The notes beneath the pieces are model-generated. The model saw only the letters and a list, made by a program, of their open reading frames with translations. It was not told where the DNA came from and searched no databases. Source: Bordetella genomosp. 4 (GTDB lineage Bacteria > Pseudomonadota > Gammaproteobacteria > Burkholderiales > Burkholderiaceae_B). Taken from it: a DNA stretch of 64,000 nt. Below, piece by piece: positions 862-46,098 of this stretch. The translations under genes and the position numbers were made by a program. Within the stretch, counting starts at the first letter, position 1, and every line of letters begins with the position of its first letter. The DNA lies in contig NZ_NEVQ01000012.1 of NCBI RefSeq assembly GCF_002261185.1, positions 310,001-374,000 of the forward strand. Reading direction: 5' to 3'.

Positions 862-2148
862 ATGCAAGAGTTGTCTTTGCCCTGCCAAGATGCCCCGCCT
901 CCAGAAGTCGGCGCAGCCTCACGCCGCCCGACTCGCTCGGTTGCCGTGAAATGGGGCGAACGCGTTGTCCATATCGGGGGCGACGCCCCGGTCGTGGTCC
1001 AGTCCATGACCAATACGGATACCGCGGATCCCATTGCAACGGCCATTCAGGTAAAAGAGCTGGCGCTGGCCGGGTCCGAGATGGTGCGTATCACGGTCAA
1101 CACGCCTGAGGCGGCCCGTGAGGTCATCGCCATCCGCGAGCAGTTGGACCGCATGGGGGTATCGGTGCCGCTGGTGGGGGACTTCCACTACAACGGCCAC
1201 AAGCTGCTGACCCAGTTCCCCGATTGCGCGCAAGCCCTGTCAAAGTACCGGATCAACCCCGGCAACATGGGCGGCGGCAAGCGTCGTGACGACAACTTTG
1301 CGCAGATGATCGAAGTCGCCTGCCGCTACGACAAACCGGTGCGCATCGGCGTCAACTGGGGCAGTCTGGATCACGAGCTGATGGCGCGCAAAATGGACGA
1401 AAACAGCCGCCGCACGCAGCCCTGGGAAGCCCAGGCCGTGATGCGCGATGCGCTCGTCGTGTCCGCGATCAGCAACGCCCAGCGCGCCGAGGAGCTCGGC
1501 TTGCGCGGCGATGCCATTATCCTGTCATGCAAGGTCAGCCATGTACAGGATTTGATCGCGGTTTATCGCGATCTGTCCGCGCGCTGCGATTACCCGTTGC
1601 ACTTGGGCCTGACCGAGGCTGGCATGGGCAGCAAGGGCATCGTGGCCTCGACGGCCGCATTGGCGGTCTTGCTGCAACAGGGCATCGGCGACACGATCCG
1701 TATTTCTCTGACTCCTGAACCCGGCGGCGATCGTACGCGCGAGGTCGTGGTCGCGCAGGAAATTCTGCAAACCATGAATCTGCGTGCATTCACGCCGATG
1801 GTGGTGGCGTGCCCTGGTTGCGGCCGCACCAGCAGCACGTTTTTCCAAGAACTGGCCGACAGCATTCAGTCTTATTTGCGTCGCCAGATGCCGGTGTGGC
1901 GCGCCCGTTATCCCGGTGTCGAGAGTATGAACGTCGCCGTGATGGGCTGTGTGGTCAATGGCCCCGGCGAAAGCCGCCATGCGGATATCGGGATCAGTTT
2001 GCCCGGTACGGGCGAGGTGCCTGCCGCCCCGGTGTTCATCGACGGCGAACGGACCGTCACCCTCAAGGGTGATCGCATCGCCGAAGAATTCCAGACCATT
2101 GTCGAAGACTACGTCGCGCGCCGTTACGGTGCGCAGGCCACTCATTAA
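862..2148 (+). CDS. ispG: IspG, 4-hydroxy-3-methylbut-2-en-1-yl diphosphate synthase
   Basis: Iron-sulfur enzyme of the non-mevalonate (MEP) isoprenoid pathway. It reductively opens methylerythritol cyclodiphosphate to HMBPP. The 428-residue protein has the N-terminal TIM-barrel sequence ([14 protein letters not shown]) and the C-terminal [4Fe-4S] motifs CPGCGRTSS and [10 protein letters not shown]. The length fits the longer form of many Gram-negatives. The ATG at 862 has a poor ribosome site, but no better in-frame start precedes the conserved region. It follows the rodZ-like gene by 12 bases and is probably in the same operon. Confidence 0.97.
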
Positions 2149-2168
2149 AAGAAAGGGCTGAGCCGTCA

Positions 2169-2193
2169 GGCGGATCGCATGGTGCGATTCGCC
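2169..2193 (+). promoter_or_regulatory. Hairpin just before the hisS start
   Basis: An 11-bp stem (GGCGGATCGCA at 2169-2179 with TGCGATTCGCC at 2183-2193, one G-T pair) with a TGG loop ends 5 bases before the hisS ATG. No clear Shine-Dalgarno sequence is left outside it. It could limit ribosome access to hisS; that role is inference. Confidence 0.45.
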
Positions 2194-2198
2194 GCGGC

Positions 2199-3488
2199 AT
2201 GATGAAGATGACGCAAGCGTTCCAGAAAGTCGCCGCTATCCGCGGCATGAATGACGTCCTGCCGGCCGATGGCGCGCGGTGGGAGCAATTCGAAGACATC
2301 GTGCGTGGCTGGTTGCGCAGCTATGGCTATCGCAATGTGCGCACGCCTGTGCTCGAGCATACGCGTCTGTTTACGCGCGGCATCGGCGAGGTCACTGACA
2401 TCGTCGAAAAAGAGATGTACACCTTTACCGATGCGCTGAACGGCGAATCGCTCACCATGCGTCCCGAGATGACCGCTGGCGTGGTGCGCGCCACGATCGA
2501 GCACAACCTGCTATACGACCGTCCGCAACGGGTGTACAGCATCGGCCCGGTGTTTCGTCACGAGCGTCCGCAACGCGGCCGTTATCGCCAGTTTCATCAG
2601 ATCGACGTTGAAGCACTGGGCTTTGCCGGCCCAGATGTCGATGCCGAACTCATCATCATGTTGGCTCGCCTGTGGAAACAACTGGGGCTGACGGACGTGC
2701 GCCTGGAGCTCAATTCTCTGGGGCAACCCGCCGAGCGTGCCGCCCATCGCGCCGCATTGATCGCGCACTTGGAACAGCATCGTGACGTGCTCGACGAGGA
2801 TGGCCTGCGCCGCATGTACAGCAACCCGCTGCGCGTCCTGGATACAAAAAATCCCGCCATGCAGGCGATGGCCGACAGCGCGCCCCGTTTGTTTGACTTC
2901 CTGGGCGAGGAATCGCGCGCTCATTTTGACGGCTTGTGCCAATTGCTGGCGGATGCGGGCATTGAATACCGCCTTAATCCTCGCCTGGTGCGCGGCCTCG
3001 ATTACTACAACTCGACCGTTTTTGAATGGGTTACCGATCGCCTGGGTTCGCAAGGCACTGTGTGCGGCGGCGGCCGCTATGACGGTCTGATCGAATTGCT
3101 GGGTGGCAAGCCCGCGCCAGCCGTAGGCTTTGCGATTGGCATGGAACGTCTCCTGGACCTCTGGGAACAAAGCGCGCCAGCGGCTGCCACAACAGAATGT
3201 GACGTTTATGTCGTTCACCAAGGCGAACAGGCTCAACGCCTGGCGGCGCGCGTGGGCGAGCAATTGCGCGATGCCGGGTTTTCCGTCATCGTGCATGCCG
3301 GATCGGCCAGTTTCAAGTCGCAATTCAAGCGGGCTGATGCCAGTGGTGCTCGAGTTGCGGTTATTCTTGGCACCGACGAAGTCGCCTCGCAGACGGCCAG
3401 CGTCAAGTTCCTGCGTGCCGATGCCGCCAACGAGGCGGCTCAGCAGCAGGTCCCGCTGGACCGCTTGGCGGATGTTTTGAAATCCTAG
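2199..3488 (+). CDS. hisS: HisS, histidyl-tRNA synthetase
   Basis: Class II aminoacyl-tRNA synthetase that charges tRNA-His. The 429-residue length is usual for bacteria. Motif 2 ([20 protein letters not shown]), the histidine-specific loop [15 protein letters not shown] and the motif [14 protein letters not shown] are intact, and a C-terminal anticodon-binding domain follows (from about residue 330, CDVYVVHQG). Several ATGs lie close together at the start (2199, 2202, 2208); the first is reported. The gene sits between ispG and yfgM, the common proteobacterial order. Confidence 0.97.
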
Positions 3489-43200: not shown

Positions 43201-43635
43201 ATGCGCACTTTGGGTCTGGCAGGGTTGAGCATTGCCGTTGTATTGAGCGGTTGCGCCAGCAAAGGTTTATTGTCCGGCGATCCTCCAGGAGCGACAGAAA
43301 CTTTTCCGGTACAGGCGGATGTGCAGGCGGCGCATCGGCGCGCGGGCGAATATGTGCGTGTGTGCCATAACGAGCGCGCCTATCCCTATGGTGTTGTGTA
43401 CCAGTCGCATCAAAGTCTGGGGGAAAAGGGCGCACCCAACGAGATCCGGATTTTCAAGCAAACCGAGCCCGCCAAAATTTTGGAAATCATTCGAGCCCAA
43501 TCAGACGGTCCGAATACGTCGAACGTCACCGTTATGGTCCTGGGCGAGGGACAATGGGATCAAGCCGAGATCGAGGCAGCCAAGACTTCGATCCAGAGCG
43601 CGACGCCGGTATGCCGTCCCTTGGACAACAAGTAA
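43201..43635 (+). CDS. Lipoprotein of unknown function
   Basis: A 144-residue protein starting MRTLGLAGLSIAVVLSGC, a clear lipoprotein signal. The mature domain has two Cys (VRVCHNERAY and TPVCRPLDNK) and a beta-rich look, but no family is recognised. Two earlier in-frame starts (43189, 43195) add only two to four residues; the GGGA site favours 43201. Confidence 0.8.
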   Translation: MRTLGLAGLSIAVVLSGCASKGLLSGDPPGATETFPVQADVQAAHRRAGEYVRVCHNERAYPYGVVYQSHQSLGEKGAPNEIRIFKQTEPAKILEIIRAQSDGPNTSNVTVMVLGEGQWDQAEIEAAKTSIQSATPVCRPLDNK

Positions 43636-43679
43636 CGCGCTTCGAATCACGATAGAAAATCGCTTGCGACGCACGAAAT

Positions 43680-43720
43680 CCTGGGTTTAATATACGCATT
43701 GCGTACATTAGCAACCCAGG
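43680..43720. promoter_or_regulatory. Nested palindromes upstream of pyrB-like gene
   Basis: TACGCA (43693-43698) and TGCGTA (43700-43705) form a perfect palindrome around one T, enclosed by outer arms CCTGGGTT (43680-43687) and AACCCAGG (43713-43720). A -10-like TAATAT (43688-43693) overlaps the inner palindrome, and the ATG of the HTH-ATCase gene is 7 bases beyond the outer arm. This is a good candidate for autoregulation by the protein's own HTH. Confidence 0.6.
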
Positions 43721-43727
43721 GGCCGCC

Positions 43728-45020
43728 ATGTCCATTTCCCAGCAAGCCTTTCTACGCGACGCCATGCGTCGCCTCAATCTGACTCGCGATGTTTTCGCCA
43801 CCCGTATCGGTGTGAAACGGCGTGCCCTAGACACGTGGCTCCTGCCGGAAGGATCGCAGGAGTTTCGTGCGATGCCCGAGGTGGTCGAGCGTTTTGTCAG
43901 CGAAATCGTGCAAAACGGTGCTTTGCTCGAAAAATATACGCAAAGCGCACAGGTGGGCCCACTGCGCGAACGAATCGCGGTGAACGGCAAGCACCAATTG
44001 CTGTCTGTGGATCAATTTACTCGCGAATCGGTCGAGGACCTGTTCCGCGTGGCGGATTTGATGCAGCCTATTGCCCGTCGGCAAAAAGTGTCTCGCGTTC
44101 TGGAAGGCGCGGTGCTGGGTAATCTGTTTTTTGAGGCCAGTACGCGGACGCGCGTGAGTTTTGGTGCGGCATTCTGCCGCTTGGGCGGTTCGGTGTGCGA
44201 TACCACCGGGTTTACCTTTTCCTCGATGGCCAAGGGCGAGTCGATTTACGACACCAGCCGTGTCATGAGCGGCTATGTTGACGCCATGGTGATCCGTCAT
44301 CCCGATAAAGGGTCCGTCGCCGAGTTTGCACAGGCCACGAATATTCCCGTGGTCAACGGCGGCGACGGTCCGGGTGAGCATCCCAGCCAGGCGCTGTTGG
44401 ACCTGTATACGATACTGACCGAGTTTTCGCGCCTGGGTAAGCTGCTCGATGGTGCTCATATCGCCATGGTCGGCGATCTGAAATACGGGCGTACGGTGCA
44501 TTCGCTGATCAAGCTATTGGCCTTGTACAAGGGTATCAAGTTCACCTTGATTTCTCCTCCGGGCCTGGAAATGCCGGATTACATCATCGAACAGGCCAGC
44601 CGTAACGACAATGTGATCGAGCAGAAAAGCAGCCTGGCAGAAGGTTTGACGGGGGCGGATGTGATTTATGCGACGCGCGTGCAGAAGGAGCGTTTCGCCA
44701 ACGAGGAAAGCGAAGGCTACACGCCCGAGTTTCAGATCAGCCGCGCGACCATCGACGCGCATTGCGGACCCGACACGATTGTCATGCACCCGCTGCCGCG
44801 CGACAGCCGGCCTGGCGCCAACGATCTGAGCACGGATCTGAATGACGATCCGCGTCTGGCGATTTTCCGTCAAACGGATAACGGTATTCCGATCCGGATG
44901 GCGATTTTCGCGGTGCTGCTAGGGGTGGAAGGTCTGGTGCAGCATTCGATGCGTGACGTGACGTGGAAACATCCGTCGCATATCGGTCCGGACGATTCGA
45001 TTTTCCACGGGCTGGATTGA
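43728..45020 (+). CDS. pyrB: Aspartate carbamoyltransferase with N-terminal helix-turn-helix domain
   Basis: A 430-residue protein; typical catalytic chains have about 310. The first 60 residues form an XRE-like HTH (LTRDVFATRIGVKRRALDTW, then LPEGSQEFRAMPEVVERFV). The rest is a complete ATCase: carbamoyl-phosphate loop FFEASTRTRVSFGAAF, the 80s-loop Lys in SMAKGESIYDTSRVMSGYVD, the HPSQALLDLYT motif, and VMHPLPRDSRPGANDL. It makes carbamoyl-aspartate in pyrimidine synthesis. No pyrI or pyrC lies adjacent. The HTH and the palindromes upstream point to self-regulation, which is inference. Confidence 0.92.
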   Translation: MSISQQAFLRDAMRRLNLTRDVFATRIGVKRRALDTWLLPEGSQEFRAMPEVVERFVSEIVQNGALLEKYTQSAQVGPLRERIAVNGKHQLLSVDQFTRESVEDLFRVADLMQPIARRQKVSRVLEGAVLGNLFFEASTRTRVSFGAAFCRLGGSVCDTTGFTFSSMAKGESIYDTSRVMSGYVDAMVIRHPDKGSVAEFAQATNIPVVNGGDGPGEHPSQALLDLYTILTEFSRLGKLLDGAHIAMVGDLKYGRTVHSLIKLLALYKGIKFTLISPPGLEMPDYIIEQASRNDNVIEQKSSLAEGLTGADVIYATRVQKERFANEESEGYTPEFQISRATIDAHCGPDTIVMHPLPRDSRPGANDLSTDLNDDPRLAIFRQTDNGIPIRMAIFAVLLGVEGLVQHSMRDVTWKHPSHIGPDDSIFHGLD

Positions 45021-45151
45021 TTGCCCTGGCAGGCGGTCATGTCTGGCCGCCTGACGTGGTCGTCGAGGCTGCTTTTTTACCGTCGGGGCGCCCCACGGTA
45101 AATCCCACGTTGGGGGTAGCAAGCAGGAAGGCGTCGCGATGAACGCAATGC

Positions 45152-45196
45152 AATACCCCAAAGGCTGGATTGAACCCCCAGCCGTTGGGGTATTTT
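45152..45196 (+). terminator. Intrinsic terminator after pyrB-like gene
   Basis: A long stem AATACCCCAA (45152-45161) with TTGGGGTATT (45185-45194), continued by GGCTGG/CCAGCC, followed by T-rich sequence. It lies between convergent genes and mainly serves the + strand. Confidence 0.92.
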
Positions 45197-45198
45197 TT

Positions 45199-46098
45199 TT
45201 AAATACGCTTTTCGCCGCCGAGGGCTTCGGTCAGGTCGGCCAGCAATTTGGCCAGTTCGCCCGTCATCAGTGCCATGTCGGAATCGAACTTCTCATCGTC
45301 ATTTTGCATGACAGTGTCGTTGCCTTCCTTGAGAACGTCCAGCGGCGCGACACGCTTTACGTCGAGGGCTTCGGTCAGCACGAAGGACACGCGGTCGGCC
45401 CAAGTCAAGGCCAAGCGGGTGCATTGTTTGCCTGACTGAATGTGGCGGCGCACGTCGTCGACGTCAATGGAGTGCTTGACGTAGCGAATGGCGGCGCGGC
45501 TTTCGCCCGAGGCGCGCAATTCAGTGTCCTGGTCGATGCTGAAATTGCTAGGGGCCTCGTCAGCGGCCAGCCAGCCGGTCATGGCGGCGGCGGGCGATTG
45601 CGCGACGTACAGATTTTCCAGCGGCAGCGGGTCGATGGTCTTGACCAGCAGGCCGATGACTTCATCGGCCTTGGCCGAGGCGGCGGCGTCAATTACCAGC
45701 CAGTGATTGACCGGATCGATCCAGACGCGCGTGTCGCGATAGACGCTGAAGGCCTTGGGCAAGAGCTCGTCGGTGACGCGCTCTTTGATTTCCTTCATTT
45801 GCTTGCGGCCGGGCTTGTAGCCCTGTTGCTCTTCGATTTCCTGAGCGCGGGCGCGAGCGACCTGGTTGACGACCGTGGTTGGCAGCAGTTTTTTCTCGGC
45901 ACGCAGGCTGAGCAAAATCTGCTGATTGACGGTGTGCGACAGCGCAGCATTTTCGCGGGGAGAAATCCAGCCCACGCTCTGCATTTCGAGATTGTTGCCG
46001 GATTGATAAGCATGCCGAGCCAAGCTTTCTTCAAGCTGTTCGCCGGTCAGCGTCCACGGTGCGGATAGTCGGTAGATCTTGAGATTCTTGAACCACAT
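45199..46098 (-). CDS. rdgC: RdgC, DNA-binding recombination regulator
   Basis: A 299-residue ring-forming, non-specific DNA-binding protein that modulates RecA activity. Family sequences include [11 protein letters not shown] at the start, [20 protein letters not shown], and [19 protein letters not shown] near residue 115. The ATG at 46098 is chosen because it begins the family N-terminus; an in-frame ATG at 46110 adds four residues. It is convergent with the pyrB-like gene. Confidence 0.93.

Follow-up and report, generated by a model that had tools for sequence, protein, structure and literature searches.

The window, that is, the whole stretch of 64,000 nucleotides that was analysed, contains an open reading frame for a protein of 430 residues in which an N-terminal domain precedes the catalytic chain of an aspartate carbamoyltransferase (ATCase; Table 1). 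Pfam placed OTCace_N at residues 90-229 (1.8e-43) and OTCace at residues 242-396 (1.4e-27), and the NCBIfam model PRK11891, which has 430 positions, matched residues 1-430 with 850.8 bits against a cut-off of 560. The active site of ATCases is marked by the motifs STRT, SSxxKGE, RHP, HPxQ and HPLP; all of these were present in the protein, whose segments FFEASTRTR, SSMAKGE, IRHP, GEHPSQ and HPLPR aligned with solved ATCases. Fold comparison of the full model gave matches mostly spanning residues 65-401, the best being the plant ATCase 6YPO. A working ATCase would be the best explanation for this protein, and the open reading frame, Pfam, PRK11891 and the motif alignments agree with the sequence-only reading, which had described a helix-turn-helix (HTH)-like head joined to a full ATCase chain in 430 residues.

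Table 1. Features at the ATCase locus (positions in the window).
Feature	Position	Strand	Basis
Possible promoter: -35-like TTGCGA (43664-43669), 18-nt spacer, -10-like TAATAT (43688-43693) running into the operator	43664..43693	+	read by hand
Upstream operator-like site TATACGCATTGCGTACA, perfect core TACGCATTGCGTA at 43693-43705, centre 29 bp before the ATG	43691..43707	.	palindrome and conservation
ATCase open reading frame, ATG start, 430 aa	43728-45020	+	open reading frame
HTH-like N-domain, residues 1-66, homologous to plasmid transcriptional regulators of ~65 residues	43728..43925	+	
Helix 2 (20-26), turn, putative recognition helix 3 (31-37, RRALDTW; residue 36 = T)	43785..43838	+	low-confidence predicted helices and conservation
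Intragenic operator-like site TATACGCAAAGCGCACA, codons Y70 T71 Q72 S73 A74	43935..43951	.	2 mismatches to core
ATCase catalytic region, residues 90-398	43995..44921	+	
F164 codon	44217..44219	+	alignment to Phe161 of Arabidopsis ATCase; invariant in 62 rows
Hairpin and T-run, terminator-like, 3' of the ATCase gene	45176..45197	+	pattern match only

This protein was the sole ATCase found in the 5.53 Mb genome; one further carbamoyltransferase match, 28% identical, is probably of the ornithine type. A search of the whole genome gave no match to PyrI at E<=0.001, and the dihydroorotase-like matches all lay on contigs other than that of the ATCase, so that the earlier statement that neither pyrI nor pyrC is adjacent held and, for PyrI, extends to the genome. 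The terminator-like pattern listed in Table 1 had 6 matches in 1.75 kb, compared with 2.3 in shuffled sequence. Long ATCases scoring above the PRK11891 cut-off were present in 172 of 268 genomes of the family to which the window belongs and in 10 of 200 of its order; among 274 class-level genomes, the genome of the window itself was the only one. The closest named relatives came from Bordetella and Achromobacter (best 80 of 173 relatives; 46-row tree). The long form with its extra domain is thus already catalogued, as PRK11891; no function for the N-domain of this family was found in the open-access literature searched.

Pfam gave the N-domain sub-threshold HTH matches (HTH_31, E 0.1; HTH_3, E 0.17, with 12.4-12.6 bits against a gathering score of 23). 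Weak HTH_3 matches were likewise obtained for 10 of 18 diverse N-domains (best E 0.005), in which 25 columns were invariant, all of them inside residues 1-50 and including R32, A33, L34, D35 and W37, and for one relative encoded on a plasmid (L206) the score reached the gathering threshold of HTH_3 (23.0 of 23 bits, E 8.4e-5). When PDB sequences were searched with an N-domain profile, no HTH relative was found, the best match (0.096) being an acyl-CoA dehydrogenase. AlphaFold2, supplied with 62 close homologues, predicted helices at residues 5-16, 20-26, 31-37 and 51-62, with the HTH at 20-37, in a model of low confidence (mean pLDDT 56.5, pTM 0.59, ten-residue blocks of 55-78 in residues 1-70). 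Structure prediction and conservation of the recognition helix had been named as checks by the sequence-only reading; the predicted secondary structure was HTH-like, within that low-confidence model, and the helix was kept in the members examined except for a few reduced genomes. The N-domain is very likely an HTH, a view for which homology rather than the model provides the basis.

The start codon is preceded by a palindrome of the form TATRCGCNNNGCGTAYA, the core of which ends 22 bp before the ATG. The promoter read by hand, an inference, has 8 of 12 consensus matches and its -10-like element runs into the palindrome; a promoter scan over 43500-45250 reported none. Across the window the palindrome pattern was matched five times with at most 2 mismatches (2.3 expected; 9 of 100 shuffles reach 5), the upstream copy alone being perfect and the intragenic site described below being one of the others. 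The 21-bp form, allowing 3 mismatches, occurs in a single place in the 5.53 Mb genome, namely upstream of the ATCase gene. An outer 7-bp inverted repeat, CTGGGTT/AACCCAG (43681-43687 and 43713-43719), brackets the operator-like site of the window; by eye, L007 has a similar outer repeat and a few other genes have shorter ones. In four loci (L048, L053, L076 and L006) the upstream site is extended, all 15 pairs at distances 2 to 16 being complementary over ~33 bp, e.g. AAATAAAATATACGCACTGCGTATATTTTATTT.

The upstream palindrome was found in the best 80 of 173 relatives (those from named genomes) and in nine order-level loci (L084-L092). Across a set of 90 genes (89 distinct, as the duplicate L085 is retained in this set, in the shuffle set and in the 84-gene codon set used below) the core positions T, CGC, GCG and A were identical and lay 13-51 bp before the start, and the sequence outside the core was far less conserved. 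All 90 upstream regions reached a score of 10/12, which 0.36% of 18,000 mononucleotide shuffles of the 90-bp upstream sequences did. When 123 distinct N-domain genes were scored (L085, L174, L184, L186, L190 and L191 having been removed as duplicates), at least 10/12 was obtained for 113 of the 116 genes with an intact HTH and for none of the 7 with a decayed HTH, which did not reach even 9/12; the corresponding count for deduplicated domain-less genes was 1 of 28, over 150 bp of upstream sequence rather than the 110 bp scanned for N-domain genes. Fisher's test for this linkage of site and HTH gives 3.6e-29, a value that ignores relatedness, many of the loci being close relatives and the counts not independent. 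The upstream site was also present in all 20 genes of a later family batch, which included 5 duplicates. The sequence-only reading had proposed that the enzyme could sense carbamoyl phosphate, aspartate or nucleotides and act on DNA through its own HTH, and a conserved palindrome that is linked to an intact HTH lends support to the idea of action on DNA.

The exceptions among genes with an intact HTH were L132 (9/12), L127 (8/12, degraded) and L141 (8/12); those among domain-less genes were L101 (10/12 at -80) and L117 (9/12). L141 (start 1501, reverse complement, G598:C87) lies on a short contig ~10 nt behind another open reading frame and has an intact N-domain with no operator; it has possibly been moved into an operon, or may be an assembly artefact. 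L131 and L132, in which the recognition helix reads CRRRTLDSW, have a variant, GTG, in the right arm of the operator, which might reflect a slight drift in specificity.

An exact 19-bp version of the pattern was present in 117 of the 268 family genomes, at most once per strand and with the listed strand pairs representing the same place; a reversed-pattern control was found in 0 of 268. All 117 were among the 174 genomes that hold the gene and none among the 94 that do not, the other 57 gene-bearing genomes having a variant or no site at this strictness. Among the matches listed, the exact site lay 11-47 bp upstream of the ATCase gene in 113 of 113 genomes for which both coordinates were given, and the four remaining pattern-bearing genomes (G523, G528, G698 and G700), compared by eye, also hold the gene. 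Since the exact site occurs only at the ATCase gene where this was checked, the ATCase and its palindrome look like a single-target circuit.

A conserved promoter palindrome does not by itself name its ligand, and it might instead be the operator of a separate transcription factor, with the N-domain serving enzyme assembly or allostery. L141, which has the domain without the site, would fit such an arrangement, as would an ATCase of Burkholderia cepacia, whose N-terminal extension can reportedly be cleaved near residue 74 with changes in the nucleotide response. However, the palindrome accompanies the intact HTH and is lost with it, the exact site is confined to the ATCase gene where checked, unlike a typical regulon, and stand-alone relatives of the N-domain adjoin palindromes of similar style, in which one base follows one residue of the helix (see below). 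We therefore regard a separate factor as very unlikely. Genes for pyrimidine synthesis are often under RNA-level control, and the palindromes could in principle be RNA structures for attenuation or riboswitch-like control, as in the leader of E. coli pyrBI. Against this, Rfam gave no match at E<=1 over 43500-43900, the upstream palindrome adjoins a -10-like sequence and has no terminal U-run, and both the linkage to the HTH and the plasmid palindromes would be left unexplained; such an RNA role is hard to credit. The palindrome is thus better read as an operator for the HTH of the ATCase itself.

Loss or decay of the N-domain has occurred naturally in genomes of 0.7-0.9 Mb from the same family (G575, G600-G607). 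These genes keep the catalytic part, but the N-domain is gone in L142 and L143, and in L134-L140 the recognition helix lacks the otherwise invariant R32. An operator was looked for in all nine (L134-L140, L142 and L143) and none was found. In a tree of 46 rows, which included 4 of the 7 genes with a decayed HTH, six reduced-genome genes nested within the N-domain clade beside Bordetella and Achromobacter (support 96/92), indicating that the domain was lost in them. L093, from a 2.0 Mb genome (G053), has neither domain nor site and formed a long branch close to the clade's base, a loose placement. The N-domain label needs two changes on this tree, which is compatible with one gain followed by later losses.

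The second operator-like site lies inside the gene, between the two domains, and is centred 215 bp downstream of the first base of the start codon and 244 bp from the upstream site. A score of at least 9/12 was found at this position in 84 of the 116 genes with an intact HTH, the other 32 falling below 9, and in 81 of those 84 genes the spacing was 232-261 bp, not strictly phased. The distant, later-found L160, L163 and L171 carry both sites, with an intragenic score of 11, a score also seen in L197 of Burkholderia arboris; L162 and L159, from the same batch as the former three, have no good intragenic site, and in the later batch of 20 family genes 9 reached 9/12. Two tandem upstream sites and no embedded one were found in L091, L092 and the Comamonas gene L196; in other genes without an embedded site no such tandem pair was present. 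L196 is a complete N-domain ATCase gene (1995-3275) on the 373 kb plasmid unnamed1 of Comamonas odontotermitis, with its tandem sites 31 bp apart.

The codons at the intragenic site are unusual: GTA or GCA at position 74, CAA at 72 and often at 75, and TAT at 70. Ranked by excess of rare codons among 398 codon columns in the codon set of 84 genes, from which six with shifted numbering (L087-L092) were left out, codon 74 came 1st, 72 3rd, 75 4th and 70 11th, and codons 70-75 formed the top six-codon window (6.40 bits; mean -0.37, sd 1.03). Codons 2-7 show nearly as large an excess (6.14 bits), perhaps the usual start-of-gene effect, so the signal at 70-75 is not unique. Rare codons can mark domain boundaries, and the embedded site might be a by-product, either of the linker peptide KYTQSA, which is conserved, or of a pause in translation between the domains; the similar excess at codons 2-7 and the many family members that no longer have a good match would suit this explanation. 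Yet the codons spell nearly the promoter palindrome, and in L087 the neighbouring residues are changed (PASTQSVYS) while the DNA site still scores 10/12. In the genes with a decayed HTH the linker peptide is missing and the intragenic site has gone too, and in the plasmid regulators described below an operator lies about as far from the start (+215 to +237). A by-product is accordingly an unlikely explanation, though less so than a separate transcription factor, and we prefer to read the embedded site as a second operator.

Two other candidates were tried and rejected. The idea that a weak intragenic site is offset by a longer upstream palindrome gave a Spearman coefficient of 0.09 (p 0.42) and a Mann-Whitney p of 0.52, and the same idea applied to the outer arms gave 0.21 (p 0.04) in the opposite direction. 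An operator-like stretch at codons 10-15 (43755-43772, RDAMRR, GACGCCATGCGTC; codons 11-14, GACGCNATGCGTC) follows from the invariant DAMR, the excess at the R14 codon being modest (rank 12 of 398).

A tblastn search with residues 1-66 matched 53 plasmid records, with E down to 3e-17 against plasmid regulators, and no phage record. The nine best plasmid matches (69-79% identity), among which H5 is annotated and L197 was read as an ATCase, probably represent ATCase genes carried by chromids or large plasmids. The next were stand-alone transcriptional regulators of ~65 residues, from 57% identity downward over ~60 residues, on plasmids of Pseudomonas, Collimonas, Burkholderia, Robbsia, Pandoraea, Polaromonas and others (e.g. 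WP_320534405.1 of Robbsia and WP_122227627.1 of Pseudomonas, their function being that of the annotation). Six plasmid regulators in turn matched the N-terminal part of PRK11891 (6e-15 to 3e-18), and sequence comparison thus makes the N-domain a homologue of this plasmid regulator family. KorC of IncP/IncU plasmids was considered as a relative, and no feature named korC was among the plasmid matches listed. In a profile search of 100 order genomes, one clear N-domain relative outside ATCases was found, L148 (G062:C19:23660-24106). It lies upstream of an AbiEii/DUF6036-type nucleotidyltransferase gene, with a perfect CCACCCCATTGGGGTGG just before its own start, an arrangement that looks like a toxin-antitoxin style pair. 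A distant version of the domain (39% identity) was also seen in a protein annotated as a ParA-family partition protein on a plasmid of Yersinia frederiksenii (L202, 1974-3077).

The surroundings of 25 plasmid loci (39-57% identity) were examined, first 19 and then a further 6. Among the first 19, an odd-centred palindrome with at least 8 of 9 pairs was present between 300 bp before and 500 bp after the start in 10, as against 84 of 950 shuffles; that of L210, one of the ten, is of a different style. Patterns drawn from these loci, in classes defined after viewing, found a site in 14 of the 19 (L202, which has no palindrome, was omitted from the class scan): TATACTCNNNGAGTATA at L198, L199 and L205, TATACCCCCANTGGGGGTATA at L194, L195, L200, L204 and L209, and TATCCCCANTGGGGATA-like sites, some imperfect, at L201, L206, L207, L208, L211 and L213. 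The further six were fetched after the prediction that K at residue 36 goes with G had been written down, and 4 of them had a site. L214, L215 and L217 show ATATCCCC-GGGGATAT by script, and L218, a near copy of L211, has a similar site by eye only; the palindromes seen at L216 (K36) are others and do not conform, and L219 (N36) has none. Overall, a palindrome of matching style was found at 18 of the 25 loci and was absent from L193, L202, L203, L210, L212, L216 and L219. Sites lay on both sides of the regulator gene in five loci, L205 (-30 and +222), L198 (-23 and +228, also +256), L199 (-23 and a weaker one at +225), L206 and L207 (both -49 and +237), while L194, L195 and L204 have one site only, at +215. 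The corresponding positions for the ATCase gene are -29 and +215.

At residue 36, the X of LDXW in the putative recognition helix, 108 of the 116 intact ATCases have T, 7 have S and one has A; their half-site, read from the centre, is TGCG. The residue is N in three plasmid regulators with TGAG sites (3 of the 3 with N36 that have a site) and K in 15 of 15 with GGG-type sites, as well as in L148. Residue 36 therefore appears to track the third base of the half-site (T/S with C, N with A, K with G), a correspondence that amounts to three or four independent points rather than twenty, since the members of each group are related to one another and style was the criterion by which sites were recognised. 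Pairing of asparagine with adenine and of lysine with guanine are classical contacts.

Taken together, these findings suggest that the ATCase very probably controls its own production. Our preferred reading, which we hold with considerable confidence on sequence evidence, is that an ATCase bearing an HTH of a plasmid family binds the palindrome at the promoter of its gene and thereby represses that gene, a second copy allowing a loop or a roadblock in most relatives. The HTH head would bind the upstream palindrome and, as this adjoins the -10-like TAATAT, binding should occlude the promoter, so that repression rather than activation of the gene would be expected. ATCases are trimeric or larger and so have several heads that could bridge two sites; the enzyme might thus hold the upstream and intragenic sites together in a loop, or else block an elongating polymerase. 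A metabolic signal would act on this regulation through the active site. UMP as the co-repressor is a guess. It may be noted that F164, in the carbamoyl-phosphate loop, is invariant across 62 rows, aligns with the plant Phe161 and is also found in several domain-less relatives (L093, L094 and L113), so UMP sensing, if real, would be older than the fusion.

The site positions alone leave the sign of regulation free and the spacing between the sites is not strictly phased, so that autoregulation could instead take the form of activation or fine-tuning, or of an intragenic roadblock in place of promoter occlusion or looping. A roadblock has a precedent in E. coli, where PurR represses purB in this manner, according to the title of a study cited in PMC4132739. 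Nevertheless, the site that is nearly universal is the upstream one, adjoining the -10-like sequence, and 32 of the 116 genes lack a good intragenic site; we consider these modes rather unlikely, if the least so of the alternatives weighed here, and favour repression at the promoter.

As the two-sided sites of the plasmid regulators resemble those of the ATCase gene at -29 and +215, the simplest account of its origin would be capture as a unit, in which a plasmid regulator gene together with both operators was fused in frame to the head of pyrB, the rear operator becoming the linker. Alternatively, the two sites may have arisen independently by selection for two sites. More tentatively, and with more doubt than belief, we propose a full scheme in which a plasmid repressor with front and rear operators was inserted in frame in front of pyrB in a forebear of these Burkholderiales, the rear operator became the linker KYTQSA, the ATCase loops the two operators, and UMP or substrate, acting through the F164 loop, sets its affinity, giving feedback at the level of both gene and enzyme without PyrI.

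ATCase is the textbook allosteric feedback enzyme, and a self-repressing form, if true, would unite feedback on the enzyme with control of the gene in a single protein; it would also show how a metabolic gene can take over a complete control circuit from a mobile element. Given the relation between residue 36 and the operator base, single substitutions can test the claim of DNA recognition directly, and a circuit that apparently has just one target would be simple to rebuild in E. coli. Among the open-access papers listed on regulation of ATCase and pyrB, most subscription journals being outside this scope, there was none on a DNA-binding ATCase, nor on one that represses its own gene by means of a head taken from a plasmid and an operator that is translated.

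Section 9 of a 2015 review (PMC4581275) mentions that Burkholderia has, as its second ATCase, a longer enzyme of ~430 residues that carries the HPLP motif, and there asks only whether one of the two enzymes is catabolic; the terms 'DNA-binding' and 'helix-turn-helix' are absent from its main text, and the PRK11891/NF008853 description names no DNA-binding domain. The protein described here has the same ~430-residue form but is the sole ATCase found in its genome, whereas in Burkholderia it is the second. The plant ATCase (6YPO) is a homotrimer without associated subunits, in which mutation of Phe161 abolishes inhibition by UMP, according to passages of PMC7878868; the loop motif FSSxAKGE is common to both enzymes and Phe161 aligns with F164, but binding of UMP by the bacterial protein is a guess. 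The catalytic chain belongs to the same family as that of E. coli PyrB/PyrI and of the class A ATCase-DHOase complexes; here, however, there is no PyrI in the genome and no adjacent DHOase. The plasmid regulators share with the ATCase an N-domain of up to 57% identity and odd-centred palindromes beside many of their genes, yet they stand alone, unfused to an enzyme, and their half-site core is GAG or GGG instead of the GCG of the ATCase. Enzymes that repress their own genes are already known, and PutA, BirA and NadR are metabolic enzymes that act as transcription factors through a fused DNA-binding domain. In E. coli, PepA is a trigger enzyme on carAB, ~230 bp of carAB DNA being wrapped around the hexamer, as stated in part of PMC6245113. 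The ATCase would share with PepA the use of a metabolic enzyme as a transcription factor, but it would differ from all four in that the enzyme is an ATCase, that it apparently has a single target, its own gene, and that an operator-like site lies inside the coding sequence.
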